From a virus, in the IMG/VR virus record IMGVR_UViG_3300025133_000752, positions 1 to 20,237 of that record: a DNA stretch of 20,237 nucleotides; one strand, written 5' to 3'. Every line of letters starts with the position of its first letter. The first letter of the stretch is position 1. A program made the translations under genes and the position numbers. Positions 8,457 through 14,590 of the stretch are shown here, in pieces. Below the pieces are notes generated by a model. It worked only from the letters and a program-made list of their open reading frames with translations, ran no database searches and had not been told where the DNA came from.

Positions 8457-9728
8457 ATGAGTAGAAATAAAATAAATAAATACAAGAAACCTCAACAAGC
8501 TAAAGCTAAAAATGGCAAGGTTCACGTTGTTAATTTTTCATCTTATACTAAACCTGAAGTTAAAGAGGTTTACAGTAGGGATTGGATTGAATATGGGGAG
8601 GATAATAATTATTTTCAATATCTTATAAATAGATATAACGGTTCACCTACGAATAACGCAGCTATTAATGGGATTGCCGATATGATTTATGGTAAAGGAT
8701 TAGATGCTGTTGATGGAGAAAATAATAAGGCTCAATACGATGAAATGAATGAGTTATTCTCTAAGAAATGCTTAAAGAGTGTTTGTTATGATTATAAGAT
8801 GATGGGTAATGCTGCGTTTCAAGTTATCTATTCAAAAGATAGAAGTAGAATTGCTCAAGTAGAGCATATTCCAATTCAAACATTAAGAGCTGAGAAAGCT
8901 GATGCTAATGGTAATATTAAAGCATATTACTATTCTAATGATTGGTCTAAAGTTAGTTCATCTAAAAAAAATGTTAAAAGAATCTCTGCATTCGGATTTT
9001 CAAAGGATAATATTGAGATAGTTTATATTAAACCTTATAAAGCAGGGTTTTTCTATTATTCTCCTGTTGATTATCAAGGGGGGTTACAATACGCTGAATT
9101 AGAGGAAGAAATTGCAAATTACCATATTAATAATATACAAAACGGACTTGCTCCAAGTATGTTGATTAACTTTAATAATGGAGTGCCTAATGAAGAGGAA
9201 AGAACGATGATAGAGCAAAGAATATACGACAAGTTTAGTGGTAGTTCAAATGCAGGTAGATTTATATTAGCATTTAATGATTCTAAAGAGTTATCAGCAA
9301 GTATAGAACCTGTTCAATTAAGTGATGCTCACCAACAGTATCAGTTCTTATCAGACGAGAGTATGAAGAAGGTTATGGTTTCCCATAGAATTGTATCACC
9401 AATGCTTGTTGGAATTAAAGATTCTTCAGGACTTGGAAATAATGCTGAGGAATTACAGACAGCTTCTGTTCTTATGGATAATACAGTTGTTCGACCATTG
9501 CAAGTTACAATACTTGATGAAATAGAGGAAATCCTTAAATTTAATGGCATCGAATTAGACATCTATTTTAAGACGTTACAGCCACTTGAATTTACCGACT
9601 TAACAAATGCTATTAGTGAGGCAGAGATAGAGAAGGAAACAGGTGTTAAAAAGGATTCTGGAGTAGGTTCAGAATCTTCAGGTGATGAAGAAATATCAGA
9701 AGAGGTAGATAAAAATTTAAAAGAATAA
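8457..9728 (+). CDS. Portal protein
   Basis: This 423-aa protein has the layout of a phage portal, the dodecameric ring at the capsid vertex through which DNA is packaged and ejected. The N-terminal region has YSRDWIEYGEDNNYFQYL and TNNAAINGIADMIYGKGL (about 39-82), a conserved portal feature. A middle wing region (about 110-200) includes KMMGNAAFQVIY and VEHIPIQTLR. Helical segments around 290-350 include MKKVMVSHRIVSPMLVGI and NAEELQTASVLMDN. The C-terminus is acidic and probably disordered (about 385-423). It is followed after 4 bases by the probable connector fusion. I cannot tell which portal subfamily it belongs to, but the call itself is firm. Confidence 0.85.
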   Translation: MSRNKINKYKKPQQAKAKNGKVHVVNFSSYTKPEVKEVYSRDWIEYGEDNNYFQYLINRYNGSPTNNAAINGIADMIYGKGLDAVDGENNKAQYDEMNELFSKKCLKSVCYDYKMMGNAAFQVIYSKDRSRIAQVEHIPIQTLRAEKADANGNIKAYYYSNDWSKVSSSKKNVKRISAFGFSKDNIEIVYIKPYKAGFFYYSPVDYQGGLQYAELEEEIANYHINNIQNGLAPSMLINFNNGVPNEEERTMIEQRIYDKFSGSSNAGRFILAFNDSKELSASIEPVQLSDAHQQYQFLSDESMKKVMVSHRIVSPMLVGIKDSSGLGNNAEELQTASVLMDNTVVRPLQVTILDEIEEILKFNGIELDIYFKTLQPLEFTDLTNAISEAEIEKETGVKKDSGVGSESSGDEEISEEVDKNLKE

Positions 9729-9732
9729 CGTA

Positions 9733-11052
9733 ATGGCTAAAAACACACAAGTTTCTATAATAAATGCCAATAATAAAACGTATAGTGATGGCACAGTAAT
9801 ACCAAGAGTTCAAAGTACGGCTGATTTCGCTAATATAACTACAGGTGCGTGGTGTTATTATGGTGACGATGCAACTAAAGGTAAACTTTATAACTGGTAC
9901 GCTATTGCTGGTGTTTATAATAGTGCCTCATTAAATAATCCTGCCCTAAGAAAGAGTTTCGCTTCTGATGGATGGAGAGTTCCTGATAACTCAGATATTG
10001 ATGATATGATTACTTATTTGATAGCTGAAGGTTATAATTGGGATGGTAGTACATCTACTAATATGATTGGTAAATCGTTAGCTTCAACAGATTTATGGTC
10101 TGCTGCCTCAAGTAATTATGATGATATTGTTGGGCGTAATCCAAATTTAAATAACTCAACAGGGTTCGATGGTAAGCCTCTTGGATTTTTTCAAGCTTTA
10201 ACACAATCCTTTGTTAGTCGTACTGATGTTGGTGCGTGGTGGACTATAGAGAATACTTATGAAACTAATGTAGGGGTAGGTACAGAGCTTAGAGCTTGGA
10301 GTTATAATTTATTCTCTTCAAGAAGTTATCTTGGACAATACTCAGCAGCATTAAACACTGGGTATAGTGTTAGGCTTATAAAAGATGTTGAGGATTCAGG
10401 ACTTACAAGTAGAGAATTTAGTTTTAGTGGAACTCCTAACTACCTTGAAACGTGGGATACTGAAGATGAAGAAAGTGAGAATGGAGAGAATAATAATAAT
10501 GGTGGAGGTAATAATAATAATAGTGGAGGAAGTAATAATGCTTCAACTAATGCTAAAGCGTTATTTATAAAGAGAGCTGATTTAGTAAAGAGTACAGCTA
10601 TGTCAGGAAGTGTAGATACGGATAAGTTTATTCAATTTATTGAACTGGCACAAGAAATTCACTTACAGAATTATTTAGGCACAGATTTATATAATAAAAT
10701 AAGTGATGAAATTATAGCAGGTACTTTAAGTGGGGATTATTTAGATTTAGTAAATAATTATATTCAACCTATGTTGATTCATTTCTCTATGGCAGAATAC
10801 TTACCTTTTGCTTCATATACGATAGCGAATGGAGGAGTTTACCATCATCAATCAGATAATTCAACGTTAGTTAGTAAGGAAGAAATAGATTTCTTAGTTC
10901 AAAAAGAGAGAGATTACGCTAATTATTATACGAATAGGTTTATAGATTTTATGGGGAGTAATGCCTCTAATTTATTTCCTGAGTATTATACTAATTCAAA
11001 TGAAGATATTAACCCTGATAAAGATACTATATTTCACGGATGGAATTTATAA
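9733..11052 (+). CDS. C-type-lectin-like domain fused to a probable head-tail connector
   Basis: This 439-aa protein has two parts. Residues about 10-218 match the Fibrobacter-succinogenes-type paralogous domain, a C-type-lectin / formylglycine-enzyme-like fold: YSDGTVIPRV, TTGAWCYYGDD, GKLYNWYAI, DGWRVPDNSDI, GAWWTIE and the closing GYSVRLIKD. An acidic then Asn/Gly/Ser-rich linker spans about 240-272. Residues 273-439 look like a complete small helical protein (LFIKRADLVKSTAMSG, LAQEIHLQNYLGTDLYNKI, YIQPMLIHFSMAEYLPF, FPEYY) of the DUF6712-like / gp6-like connector type usually found beside the portal, which is exactly where this gene lies. The fusion would hang a binding domain from the neck. 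The lectin-like assignment is firmer than the connector assignment. No reverse transcriptase or template repeat is visible, so diversification is not supported. Confidence 0.75.
   Translation: MAKNTQVSIINANNKTYSDGTVIPRVQSTADFANITTGAWCYYGDDATKGKLYNWYAIAGVYNSASLNNPALRKSFASDGWRVPDNSDIDDMITYLIAEGYNWDGSTSTNMIGKSLASTDLWSAASSNYDDIVGRNPNLNNSTGFDGKPLGFFQALTQSFVSRTDVGAWWTIENTYETNVGVGTELRAWSYNLFSSRSYLGQYSAALNTGYSVRLIKDVEDSGLTSREFSFSGTPNYLETWDTEDEESENGENNNNGGGNNNNSGGSNNASTNAKALFIKRADLVKSTAMSGSVDTDKFIQFIELAQEIHLQNYLGTDLYNKISDEIIAGTLSGDYLDLVNNYIQPMLIHFSMAEYLPFASYTIANGGVYHHQSDNSTLVSKEEIDFLVQKERDYANYYTNRFIDFMGSNASNLFPEYYTNSNEDINPDKDTIFHGWNL
10480..10548 (+). repeat. AAT/GGN triplet repeat encoding the Asn/Gly linker
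   Basis: In-frame runs of AAT and GGT/GGA/AGT triplets encode the flexible segment around NNNNGGGNNNNSGGSNN. It separates the lectin-like domain from the C-terminal connector-like domain. Such simple repeats can slip in multiples of three and can act as recombination hinges. Confidence 0.8.
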
Positions 11053-11159
11053 AGAAAGAATATAAACCAAAAGCAGTTAATTTAAAGAAATTACAAATAT
11101 ATTTAAGCAAAACAAAAGATGGCAAACAATATAGATTGGGGTCAAGGAATAATAAATAA
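11040..11159 (+). CDS. Possible small overlapping lysine-rich ORF
   Basis: This 39-aa ORF (starts MEFIKKEYKPKAVNLKK) begins 13 bases inside the end of the lectin-connector gene and ends 41 bases inside the next gene in another frame. It fills an otherwise empty 66-base gap. The 5' overlap resembles the coupling seen at the tape measure gene. The long 3' overlap and unremarkable composition argue against it. I do not recognise it, and codon-level conservation in relatives would be needed to accept it. Confidence 0.35.
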   Translation: MEFIKKEYKPKAVNLKKLQIYLSKTKDGKQYRLGSRNNK

Positions 11160-11343
11160 CACTATTAATTGGGGTTTAGGCGCAGTTAATAATGTATTAT
11201 CTTGGGGTATATCTCATAAAGAGGAAAATAGCCGTAGTGGCGAAACAGAAATATACGGATTAAGTGAACTACAACGACAGTTTAAATTAAGAGTAGAGGC
11301 TGACGGTGGTATTGTTGAATCTATTAGATGCGTTAAATTATAA
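11119..11343 (+). CDS. Small protein with NxxxWG repeats
   Basis: This 74-aa protein starts with three near-repeats of 10-11 residues: NNIDWGQGII, NNTINWGLGAV and NNVLSWGISH (about residues 3-33). A polar segment with GETEIYG and a C-terminus of ADGGIVESIRCVKL follow. The regular N-N-x-x-x-W-G pattern suggests short stacked beta turns. I recall similar small proteins beside connector and fibre genes in Bacteroidetes phages but no established function. It lies between the lectin-connector fusion and the first fibre-like gene (25-base gap), so a minor fibre, adaptor or neck component is a reasonable inference. Confidence 0.65.
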   Translation: MANNIDWGQGIINNTINWGLGAVNNVLSWGISHKEENSRSGETEIYGLSELQRQFKLRVEADGGIVESIRCVKL

Positions 11344-11368: not shown

Positions 11369-13411
11369 ATGGCAACACCAAGTTTAGCAATGATACCTTC
11401 GGGTTATAAAGAAGAAAAATTATATAGCTTTTTACCTGTACCAAGCTATTCAGAAGAATTAGTTACTAATGGAGATTTTGCTACTGATAGTGATTGGAAT
11501 AAATATGGTAGCTTTACAATAAGTGGAGGTGTGGCAAGTGCATCATCTAATGGCGCATTAACACAAGCCTCAATATTTCAGTCTAACAAAAGATATACTG
11601 TAAGTTTTGATTTAATATCAAACGGTCAGCAATTTAATTTGTGGGTAAATGGTACTCAATTAGTGTTTGCATCATCATTAAATAGTGGTAGTTACACTTA
11701 TGATGTTTTGGCGACAATTTCGGGGTCTTTATATTTTGAGGCTACAAGTTCTTTTATAGGCTCAATTGACAACGTATCAGTAAAAGAAGTGCTTGTATCT
11801 GATGGTGATTTTACATTTTCAAGAGGTTCTAATGCAACGAGAGTAAATAAAGATGGTTTAATTGAATCAATGCCTTTAGATTATGGTAGCGAGTTGATTA
11901 CTAATGGTGGATTTGACACCAATAATGATTGGAATAATACAAATGCATCAGTTACTAATGGAGTAGCCTCTTTTAATGCTGTTAGTGGTCAAGAAAGTGC
12001 TCTTTTTCAACAAAATGTTGCTACTTCAATTCCAAGTGGAACACTACACGCTTTTACTTACACTGTTATATCTAATAATCTGCAAGGTAGTGGTGCTTTT
12101 TATGTTGGATATAAGACAGTTAATGAGTGTATTCAAGAATCGGGAATACCTACGACAGTTGGAACACACACTATTTATAATAACTCAATAGGCACAGGTA
12201 CAGGTTTTTCTTTACATACGTCTGTTGGTTTTAATAGTGGAAGTTTAGTTATCGACAACATCTCTGTTAAAGAAGTAACAGGAGGCTACAATAAGCCACG
12301 TTTAGATTATTCTGATAGTTCTTGCCCAAGCTTGTTATTAGAGCCACAGAGAACGAATTTACTTACTTATTCAGAAGATTTTGTTAATTCTTATTGGACT
12401 AAAAGTGGTTCAAGTGTAGTTAGTGGAGTTGTGTCGCCCGATGGAACGAACAATGCTTTTAAGTTAGTTAACAATTCAAGTAATGGATTGCATAGTTTAA
12501 TAGGTTCAAATGTTTCTTCTTCTAATACTGACTATTCATTAAGTTTATTTGTAAAAGCAGAAGAAATAAATAAAATCGGGGTTAGGGATGCTATTACAGG
12601 ACTTTATTTAACTTACGATATAAGTACTGACACAGTTATTGAAAGTAATGTAGCGAGTTATAATATTTCTAAACTTACAAACGGATGGAATAGAGTGAGT
12701 ATAGTATTTCAAGGCTCGGGGTCAGCGATAATACAACCAAAGATTTATTTATTAAACGACTCTTATGTTTCGGGTAATCCTCAAACTTATTCTTATACAG
12801 GAAATGGTACGGATGGATTATACATTTGGGGCGCACAATTAGAAGAAGGAAGTTATAGCACAAGTCTAATAAAAACTAACGGAAGTTCAGCCACTCGTCT
12901 TCAAGATGAATGTGATGACGCAGGTGATAGTTCTACTTTTAATAGTGAAGAGGGTGTTTTGTTTGCAGAGATAAGTGCTTTGGCTGATGATGGAACTTAC
13001 AGATTAATGTCTATTGAAGATGCTTCTAATAGTTTTATTTATTTAGGGTATAAAGATACTTCTAATGTAGTTAGAGCAAGAATGGAAGTAGGAGGCGTTA
13101 CTTCTTTTAATATGGAGTATGTTTTATCAGATGAAACAGAATTTAATAAAGTTGCTGTTAAGTGGAAAGTTAATGATTTTGCTTTATGGGTTAATGGTGT
13201 AGAGGTTGAAACAGATACAAGTGGAGGTAGTTTTAATACTGATACATTAAATAAATTATCTTTTAATAGAAATTCAAGTAGTAGTTTCTTAGGAAAAACA
13301 AAAGACCTAAGAGTTTACAATACAGCACTAACAGATTTAGAATTAGAAGGAATTAGCTCTTGGGAATCATTTATAGCAATGGCTAACGGACAAAATTATA
13401 CAATAAAATAA
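11369..13411 (+). CDS. Fibre-like protein with tandem jelly-roll carbohydrate-binding modules
   Basis: This 680-aa protein is Ser/Asn/Gly-rich. Two related modules, about 29-145 (EELVTNGDF to IDNVSVKEV) and 174-306 (SELITNGGF to IDNISVKEVTGG), look like CBM4/9-type jelly rolls. Between and after them are DFTFSRGSNATRVNKDGLIE (about 147-166) and the phage-fibre signature LLLEPQRTNLLTYSEDF. A third module runs from about 339 to 516. The C-terminal part (about 525-680) resembles a concanavalin/LamG domain and is shared with the next gene. The expected role is binding host surface glycans from the virion. Its stop and the next start are 3 bases apart. The order after the connector could place it as a head, neck or tail appendage. 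Confidence 0.75.
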   Translation: MATPSLAMIPSGYKEEKLYSFLPVPSYSEELVTNGDFATDSDWNKYGSFTISGGVASASSNGALTQASIFQSNKRYTVSFDLISNGQQFNLWVNGTQLVFASSLNSGSYTYDVLATISGSLYFEATSSFIGSIDNVSVKEVLVSDGDFTFSRGSNATRVNKDGLIESMPLDYGSELITNGGFDTNNDWNNTNASVTNGVASFNAVSGQESALFQQNVATSIPSGTLHAFTYTVISNNLQGSGAFYVGYKTVNECIQESGIPTTVGTHTIYNNSIGTGTGFSLHTSVGFNSGSLVIDNISVKEVTGGYNKPRLDYSDSSCPSLLLEPQRTNLLTYSEDFVNSYWTKSGSSVVSGVVSPDGTNNAFKLVNNSSNGLHSLIGSNVSSSNTDYSLSLFVKAEEINKIGVRDAITGLYLTYDISTDTVIESNVASYNISKLTNGWNRVSIVFQGSGSAIIQPKIYLLNDSYVSGNPQTYSYTGNGTDGLYIWGAQLEEGSYSTSLIKTNGSSATRLQDECDDAGDSSTFNSEEGVLFAEISALADDGTYRLMSIEDASNSFIYLGYKDTSNVVRARMEVGGVTSFNMEYVLSDETEFNKVAVKWKVNDFALWVNGVEVETDTSGGSFNTDTLNKLSFNRNSSSSFLGKTKDLRVYNTALTDLELEGISSWESFIAMANGQNYTIK

Positions 13412-13414
13412 GAT

Positions 13415-14590
13415 ATGGCAAATACAATAAAATTTGGAAATGGGAATTGGGCAACAAAAGAAGGCTCGACCTTAGCTTATAACGATGAAAATGAAAACTT
13501 CAAACCTTTACCATTTGACTTCAGTAGAGCGAGTAACGCTACTGTTGTAAATAAAGAGGGTTTAATTGAAACTGTTAGTAATGGTGTTCCAAGAATAGAT
13601 TATTTAGATAATACTAAAGGTGCTTTATTATTGGAGAAGACAGCCACAAATAAAGTGTTATATAGTAATGATTTAACACAATGGGCAAATATAGGTCCAT
13701 CTACAACTGTAACTAATGAAGGTGTATCTATTGTTAAAAATAATACTTCTTCAAGAGTTCAGATGACAGGTTCAAGTTCTAGTTCATTTTTATCGGGGAG
13801 TGTTTTCTGTATGGCAGGTACAAATCATACATTTTCATTTTGGGCAAAAGGTGAAACAGCAGGACTAACATTTGGAGTAACTTATTCGGGAGGTTCAGCA
13901 CCATCGTATGTAACTAAGACAATAGCATCAGATTCAGACGAATGGGTTAAGTACGAAGCAAGTTTTTATTCACCAGGTTATCTTACAGTTTATTATACAT
14001 TTTATAATTTGCAAAATATGGATTCTGTTGATTTCTATGTAGATGGTGTACAATTTGAGCAAGTTACTACCTTAGATGATTCATCAACCTCTTTAATTGA
14101 AACGAGTGGTTCAGCAGTTTCGAGAGTTGCAGATGAATGTAGTGGAGCAGGTAATGAGCAAGTAATAAATTCAACAGAGGGTGTGCTTTATTTTGAGGCT
14201 AAAGCTTTAGCTGACGATGGAACTAATAGGTCAATATCTATTTCAGATGGTACGTCTAGTAATAAAATAACCCTAAAATTTGATAACACTTCCAATCAAA
14301 TAGAGTATGATGTTATTGTAGGTAGTGTTGTTCAAGTAGGAATTGATAGAACAATAACCGATACAACAAACTATAACAAGATAGCTTGTAAATGGGAACT
14401 CAATTCTTTTTCATTATGGGTTAATGGTGTTGAAATAGGAACTGATTCTAGTGGTAGTACCCCAATAGGATTATCAGAACTAGCATTTGACAATGGTAAT
14501 GGGGGTAGTGCTTTCTACGGTAAATGTAAAGACCTAAGAGTTTATGATGTAGCTTTAACAGACCAAGAATTAGCAGATTTAACAAGTTAA
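13415..14590 (+). CDS. Second fibre-like protein, shorter paralogue
   Basis: This 391-aa protein is a shorter relative of the preceding fibre. It lacks the two N-terminal modules but keeps FDFSRASNATVVNKEGLIE (about 34-52), RIDYLDNTKGALLLEKTATN (about 60-79), one jelly-roll-like module (about 85-235) and the concanavalin/LamG-like C-terminal domain (about 250-391: EGVLYFEAKALADDGTN, FSLWVNGVEIGTDSSG, GKCKDLRVYDVALTDQELADL). The C-terminal ends of the two genes are also similar at DNA level (both contain AAAGACCTAAGAGTTTA), which indicates duplication. The likely role is a surface-glycan-binding appendage. Whether both fibres sit in one particle is not visible from sequence. Confidence 0.75.
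   Translation: MANTIKFGNGNWATKEGSTLAYNDENENFKPLPFDFSRASNATVVNKEGLIETVSNGVPRIDYLDNTKGALLLEKTATNKVLYSNDLTQWANIGPSTTVTNEGVSIVKNNTSSRVQMTGSSSSSFLSGSVFCMAGTNHTFSFWAKGETAGLTFGVTYSGGSAPSYVTKTIASDSDEWVKYEASFYSPGYLTVYYTFYNLQNMDSVDFYVDGVQFEQVTTLDDSSTSLIETSGSAVSRVADECSGAGNEQVINSTEGVLYFEAKALADDGTNRSISISDGTSSNKITLKFDNTSNQIEYDVIVGSVVQVGIDRTITDTTNYNKIACKWELNSFSLWVNGVEIGTDSSGSTPIGLSELAFDNGNGGSAFYGKCKDLRVYDVALTDQELADLTS

Follow-up and report, generated by a model that had tools for sequence, protein, structure and literature searches.

Our analysis suggested, with a probability of about 0.6, that a flavobacterial siphophage carries a neck adaptor to which a FISUMP head was added N-terminally via a flexible Asn/Gly linker, and that this head would serve as a secondary adhesin. 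The protein is encoded in the window, which is the whole stretch of 20,237 nucleotides analysed here (positions 1 to 20,237 of the IMG/VR virus record IMGVR_UViG_3300025133_000752). Its open reading frame of 439 residues is a genuine two-domain protein, consisting of a lectin-like domain, a linker, and a DUF6712 domain that resembles head-tail adaptors in its gene position and predicted fold.

The fusion gene and its neighbors

The preliminary description of this DNA, made from the letters alone, had divided the frame into a lectin-type domain, an Asn/Gly linker, and a C-terminal part, and both the division and the linker were recovered with the Pfam search and the sequence composition (Table 1). 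The match to Fib_succ_major (PF09603) scored 60.1 bits (cut-off 33.9) and covered positions 12-187 of the 187 in the model, and the match to the NCBIfam FISUMP model (TIGR02145) was under the curated cut-off (30.9 versus 41.65 bits). DUF6712 (PF20459) matched residues 311-424 with 82.1 bits (cut-off 25, model positions 1-117 of 121), and phrog_35048, a family to which no function is assigned, matched residues 275-429. The homology to DUF6712 proteins extended over residues 273-439. Between the two domains, the linker contained about 54 residues, with 12 Asn and 6 Gly among residues 236-272. No in-frame ATG, GTG, or TTG was found between codons 112 and 289 of the fusion frame, and a start at codon 290 would remove the conserved first 17 residues of the adaptor domain, so that an intact unfused adaptor cannot begin at any of the usual start codons and its production from an internal start was ruled out. 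Since such a start is lacking, every subunit should bear a head, unless the protein is cut.

The fusion was also present in other contigs. In the IMG/VR scan with the C-terminal part, the best 80 of 130 relatives were taken. Contig 3300010151_000546 (L001) contained the complete fusion. It was 99.4% identical to the window in DNA over 6.9 kb, and the three codon differences in the fusion gene were all synonymous. Contig 3300025131_003940 (L083), which was 92.5% identical in DNA over 4.3 kb, kept the junction of the portal and lectin sequences and stopped at residue 214, short of the DUF6712 join. Between the window and L083, the differences were scattered across the lectin domain, with dS of 0.35, dN of 0.037, and dN/dS of about 0.105. 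This low ratio, together with the synonymous-only differences to L001, pointed to selection for the lectin sequence. Because two contigs carried the whole fusion, a third carried the portal-lectin junction, and the lectin dN/dS was near 0.1, the fusion is, as judged by these comparisons, neither a chimera nor a decaying insert. Chimeric assembly or a frame error was ruled out by L001, L083, and the selection on the lectin domain.

The fusion gene began 4 nt past the stop codon of the portal gene. Downstream of it, the window contained a small protein with repeats and an adhesin cassette of two genes. Homologues of the two cassette genes, in one to three copies, followed the adaptor gene in several relatives.

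Table 1. Features of the fusion gene and of its neighbors in the window.
Feature	Positions	Strand	Evidence
Portal gene, directly upstream	8457..9728	+	phrog_33693 E 1.5e-90; phrog_11226 E 1.6e-24; Phage_portal PF04860 E 8.9e-9, just under cut-off
Fusion gene, 439 aa: lectin-like domain, linker, and DUF6712 neck-adaptor-like domain	9733..11052	+	ORF and domain matches; whole fusion also in L001, portal-lectin junction in L083
Fib_succ_major/FISUMP domain, residues 11-217; predicted mixed alpha/beta fold	9763..10383	+	PF09603 E 4.6e-16; AF2 pLDDT 83, pTM 0.81
Linker, residues 219-272: acidic, then Asn/Gly/Ser-rich; pI 4.05; no in-frame start codon	10387..10548	+	Sequence composition; pLDDT of residues 224-230 already <50
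DUF6712 neck-adaptor-like domain, residues 273-439: predicted helices, beta-hairpin, long helix, extended conserved tail	10549..11049	+	PF20459 E 4.1e-23; phrog_35048; AF2 pLDDT 79, pTM 0.75; alignment of 46 proteins
Small protein with WGQG/WGLG-type repeats	11119..11343	+	After the adaptor gene, before spike-like genes, in many relatives
Two genes with GTA head-spike-fibre domain and LamG-type domain, adhesin cassette	11369..14590 (11369-13411, 13415-14590)	+	NF048003 E 5.3e-41 and 5.2e-16; PF13385

The DUF6712 domain as a candidate head-tail adaptor

The DUF6712 part is quite probably a head-tail adaptor, a role proposed because of its position beside the portal gene, its predicted TP901-1-like fold, and its relation by fold to a virion protein of phage phiST. 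The joint MAFFT alignment of both domains put lectin sequences onto the adaptor domain, and for this reason the lectin-like and DUF6712 domains were modelled apart. The AlphaFold2 model of the C-terminal domain, built from 46 sequences, was mostly helical, in agreement with the helical region that had been read from the letters. The predicted elements were helices at positions 9-15, 21-43, 45-57, and 62-88, a hairpin at 90-93/96-99, a helix at 110-142, and an extended conserved tail. The adaptor ORF38 of TP901-1 consists of the helices h1-h2-h3, a hairpin, the long helix h4, and an extended C-terminus, the last strand of which joins the portal clip (PMC10747895). The predicted elements of the DUF6712 domain followed the same order, as compared by description rather than by superposition. 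In the Foldseek search against viral models, the domain matched M4SK65, annotated as "Structural protein" of Cellulophaga phage phiST (probability 1.00, TMq 0.60, E 0.019). A phiST protein of 166 residues, annotated as structural and linked to M4SK65 by length and name rather than by accession, is encoded directly 3′ of a phrog_11226 portal.

Homology to a solved head-tail adaptor of the gp6, gp15, or RcGTA g6 type was detected neither by sequence nor by fold in the PDB. Foldseek against the PDB gave no significant match for the domain (best E 1.2), its profile had no match among the PDB sequences, and hhalign of the profile gave no sequence link to HK97 gp6 or to the phiST protein (0.4% and 2.6%). 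Owing to the lack of a match to a solved adaptor by sequence or PDB fold, the domain is termed adaptor-like here and not filed as a member. The connector that the preliminary description had placed beside the portal thus held in its portal-adjacent gene and in a connector-like predicted fold, a helical domain with a hairpin and an extended C-terminal tail, but not in homology to a solved adaptor. The domain also matched only DUF6712 and phrog_35048 rather than any fibre or chaperone family, and it stayed adjacent to the portal across distant prophages.

This gene position was highly constant. In the 16 relative loci that were compared, the genes for the protease, the capsid, the phrog_19091 protein, a small protein, the portal, and the DUF6712 protein followed each other as far as each contig reached. 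The DUF6712 gene stood directly after the portal homologue in all 16 loci, save for a GIY-YIG gene between them in L055. This gene (L055:5474-5998; PF01541, E 1.5e-5) was located exactly between the portal and DUF6712 genes, indicating that the junction accepts inserts in relatives. In L024, the segment that begins with the phrog_19091 gene and ends with the DUF6712 gene occurred twice in tandem, 3.8 kb apart (L024:241-7299), which may be an assembly effect. Among 10 distant Flavobacteriaceae prophages, the gene just upstream of DUF6712 matched a portal family in eight, with E values from the 1.2e-116 type to 0.002, some of them weak (1e-4 to 2e-3), and phrog_22277 in the other two. The phrog_22277 gene took the place of the portal before DUF6712 in L356 and L358 (as the first ORF) and weakly shared a match with phrog_11226 in L340, and by this resemblance it is probably a portal family. 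The DUF6712/phrog_35048 protein gp8 of Nonlabens phage P12024L (AFM54728.1), which had 32% identity, is likewise encoded after the portal gene; it is unfused.

Distribution and origin of the lectin-like domain

The survey of unfused versions proposed in the preliminary description found that they exist and are the rule. The viral contigs contained 177 DUF6712 ORFs with 109 distinct proteins, a sample made of the distinct sequences among the best 80 of each scan, and 108 of these 109, by profile over all scans, were unfused. The DUF6712 domain was preceded by fewer than 10 residues in 107 of the 108 and by 10-19 residues in the remaining one. The homologue of residues 273-439 was elsewhere a stand-alone protein of 165-168 residues, which began directly with the domain (MAKALFIK... 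or a similar sequence), and the unfused viral members among those examined ranged from 165 to 187 residues. PF09603 was present in two of the 48 relative records searched, namely L001 and L083, and no FISUMP domain was found as a separate gene in the 46 unfused records searched, several of which are fragments. Among the relatives examined, the fusion is, on this evidence, confined to one marine flavobacterial phage lineage. Orthologues without the lectin-like head had adaptor domains with 80-83% identity and capsid proteins with 83-84% identity. Since orthologues this close do without the head, we infer that it is accessory and would be dispensable for assembly.

In bacterial genomes, a peptide-pattern search of GTDB for close DUF6712 homologues found none. 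When 399 Flavobacteriaceae genomes were searched with the Pfam model, DUF6712 was detected in 20 of them. The open frames that encode it had either 173-192 or 312-345 residues, and none reached the length of the fusion. The two longer frames checked with the Pfam model contained two DUF6712 stretches each, and in three frames the domain was matched twice, at separate places. In L349, L353, L356, and similar prophage loci, the proteins of 312-345 residues, some with two DUF6712 stretches, were encoded after portal-like genes.

The fold of the lectin-like domain was modelled by AF2 from 43 sequences (Table 1). CTLDs, including several snaclecs and BDCA2, were among its top Foldseek matches in the PDB, all of which were weak (best E 0.13, probability at most 0.47). 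Fib_succ_major has been listed as one of the C-type-lectin folds that diversity-generating retroelements target (PMC8143477, PMC4159848). In the Bacteroides phages Bacuni, the domain is located at the C-terminus of a target gene of such a retroelement and is varied by it (PMC8143477). These proteins, which are thought to bind hosts, share the Fib_succ_major family with the protein of the window, but here the domain is N-terminal and fused to a neck gene. No reverse transcriptase (RVT_1) was found among the scanned ORFs of the window or in the records of seven relatives, which are fragments, and a diversity-generating retroelement was accordingly not backed.

In other viral contigs, FISUMP was found mostly on long proteins, often at the extreme C-terminus, with matches to virion-structural and tail-fibre proteins and one match to a crAss muzzle protein. 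It is a module that recurs at the C- or N-terminus of long virion proteins of phages. It was fused C-terminally to a homologue of the protein at 2-2149 of the window in L148 (L148:3883-6555) and to a homologue of the head-spike-fibre-domain protein at 11369-13411 in L165 (L165:4600-6543). Since this phage encodes homologues of both carriers, the domain, as read from these homologies, moves among the virion proteins of such phages. Restriction of the domain to tail tips, which had been named as a finding against placement at the neck, was not clearly seen: in other phages, the domain occurred mainly on fibres and long virion proteins, and it was also present on the homologue of a head-spike-fibre-domain protein. 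The nearest bacterial kin of the lectin-like domain were mostly secreted-looking proteins of Flavobacteriaceae, for example of Polaribacter, and in a quick tree, the domain of the window grouped with eight of these flavobacterial proteins (SH-aLRT 89, not starred). This relationship suggested a host origin of the domain.

Proposed function of the heads and alternative explanations

In the proposed mechanism, the DUF6712 parts would form a ring beneath the portal, as in the orthologues, with the predicted beta-hairpin lining the channel and the conserved C-terminal tail clasping the portal clip. On their linkers, the lectin-like heads would be able to swing outward around the neck, where they may bind host surface glycans or proteins in a weak and multivalent manner. 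Such heads would act as a secondary, reversible adhesin, keeping the particle by the cell as the tail tip searches for its receptor. Incorporation into the virion, the ring with its copy number, the outward display of the heads, their binding to a ligand, and the benefit to the phage are all inferred. The fuller picture, in which the neck ring was turned into a receptor-binding organ with about twelve tethered lectin-like heads as a collar adhesin and the domain was taken from a host surface protein, has in our estimate somewhat less than an even chance.

Known virion structures contain the elements of this proposal in separate forms. The adaptors of RcGTA (g6, Rcc01688) and R4C, which are present in twelve copies, have an N-terminal beta attachment domain that binds the capsid (PMC7296036, PMC10276861). 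Like the fusion protein as predicted here, they have an N-terminal beta domain, followed by a helical tube domain and, at the C-terminus, the part that binds the portal; no sequence homology to them was found. The difference is that their N-terminal domain is capsid-binding (Ig-like in R4C), whereas the FISUMP domain here sits on a long Asn/Gly linker and is absent from the unfused orthologues. In TP901-1, the neck passage structure ORF51 is a separate trimeric fibre around the neck with carbohydrate-binding modules (PMC10747895). The neck of that phage is thus similar in having such modules and in the order of its adaptor elements, but the modules are on a separate fibre, whereas the putative binding domain here is inside the adaptor chain. 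By analogy, the fusion protein may unite the N-terminal domain of RcGTA and R4C and the neck binding of TP901-1 in one chain. The head spike fibres of RcGTA (NF048003), the domain of which is shared by the two cassette genes of the window, are head-mounted and bind the capsule; they differ in being separate proteins on the capsid vertices and not in a neck ring. They indicate that adhesion is not limited to the tail tip.

The same RcGTA and R4C adaptors raise the alternative that the N-terminal domain is a structural clamp, in which a FISUMP fold was simply co-opted to attach to the capsid around the portal vertex. The order of a beta-containing domain followed by a helical adaptor is the one found in both, but this explanation is unlikely, as the closely related orthologues and their capsids do without the domain, the long low-complexity linker is more in keeping with a tethered head than with a rigid clamp, and the domain has its nearest kin among secreted surface proteins. 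Slightly less likely again is that the DUF6712 part is another neck-region virion protein, for example a neck or tail-completion protein, which would place the heads lower or in another number. The failure to match a solved adaptor would allow this, and the existence of doubled DUF6712 proteins, which complicates a simple ring with one domain per portal subunit, points the same way; the constant place straight after the portal gene, even in distant prophages, and the TP901-1 order of the predicted elements argue against it. It is very improbable that the fusion is incidental, with a lectin domain captured by read-through or insertion and tolerated or cut off in assembly, so that it has no role at the neck. 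The occurrence of the fusion in one lineage only and the GIY-YIG gene at the same junction in L055 would fit such a capture, but the low dN/dS of the lectin domain between two populations and the synonymous-only differences to L001 speak for selection on its sequence.

Compared with these alternatives, a neck adaptor with an added adhesin head is the reading preferred here. In a literature search of open-licence papers, we found neither an account of a portal adaptor with a fused lectin-like domain nor any paper on DUF6712, on FISUMP, or on a lectin combined with a head-tail connector. The statement in the preliminary description that such a decoration was not known to be described therefore stands for the fusion of a lectin and an adaptor, but not for its parts, since N-terminally extended adaptors (RcGTA, R4C) and sugar-binding neck fibres (TP901-1) have been published.

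Siphophage adsorption is usually seen as a matter of the tail tip. If the proposal is true, a ligand-binding domain in the adaptor would represent covalent neck adhesion in as many copies as the portal dictates, and the conserved portal junction would tolerate a cargo of about 270 residues. DUF6712, which Pfam lists as of "unknown function", would gain a testable role as a neck adaptor in many marine and flavobacterial phages and prophages.
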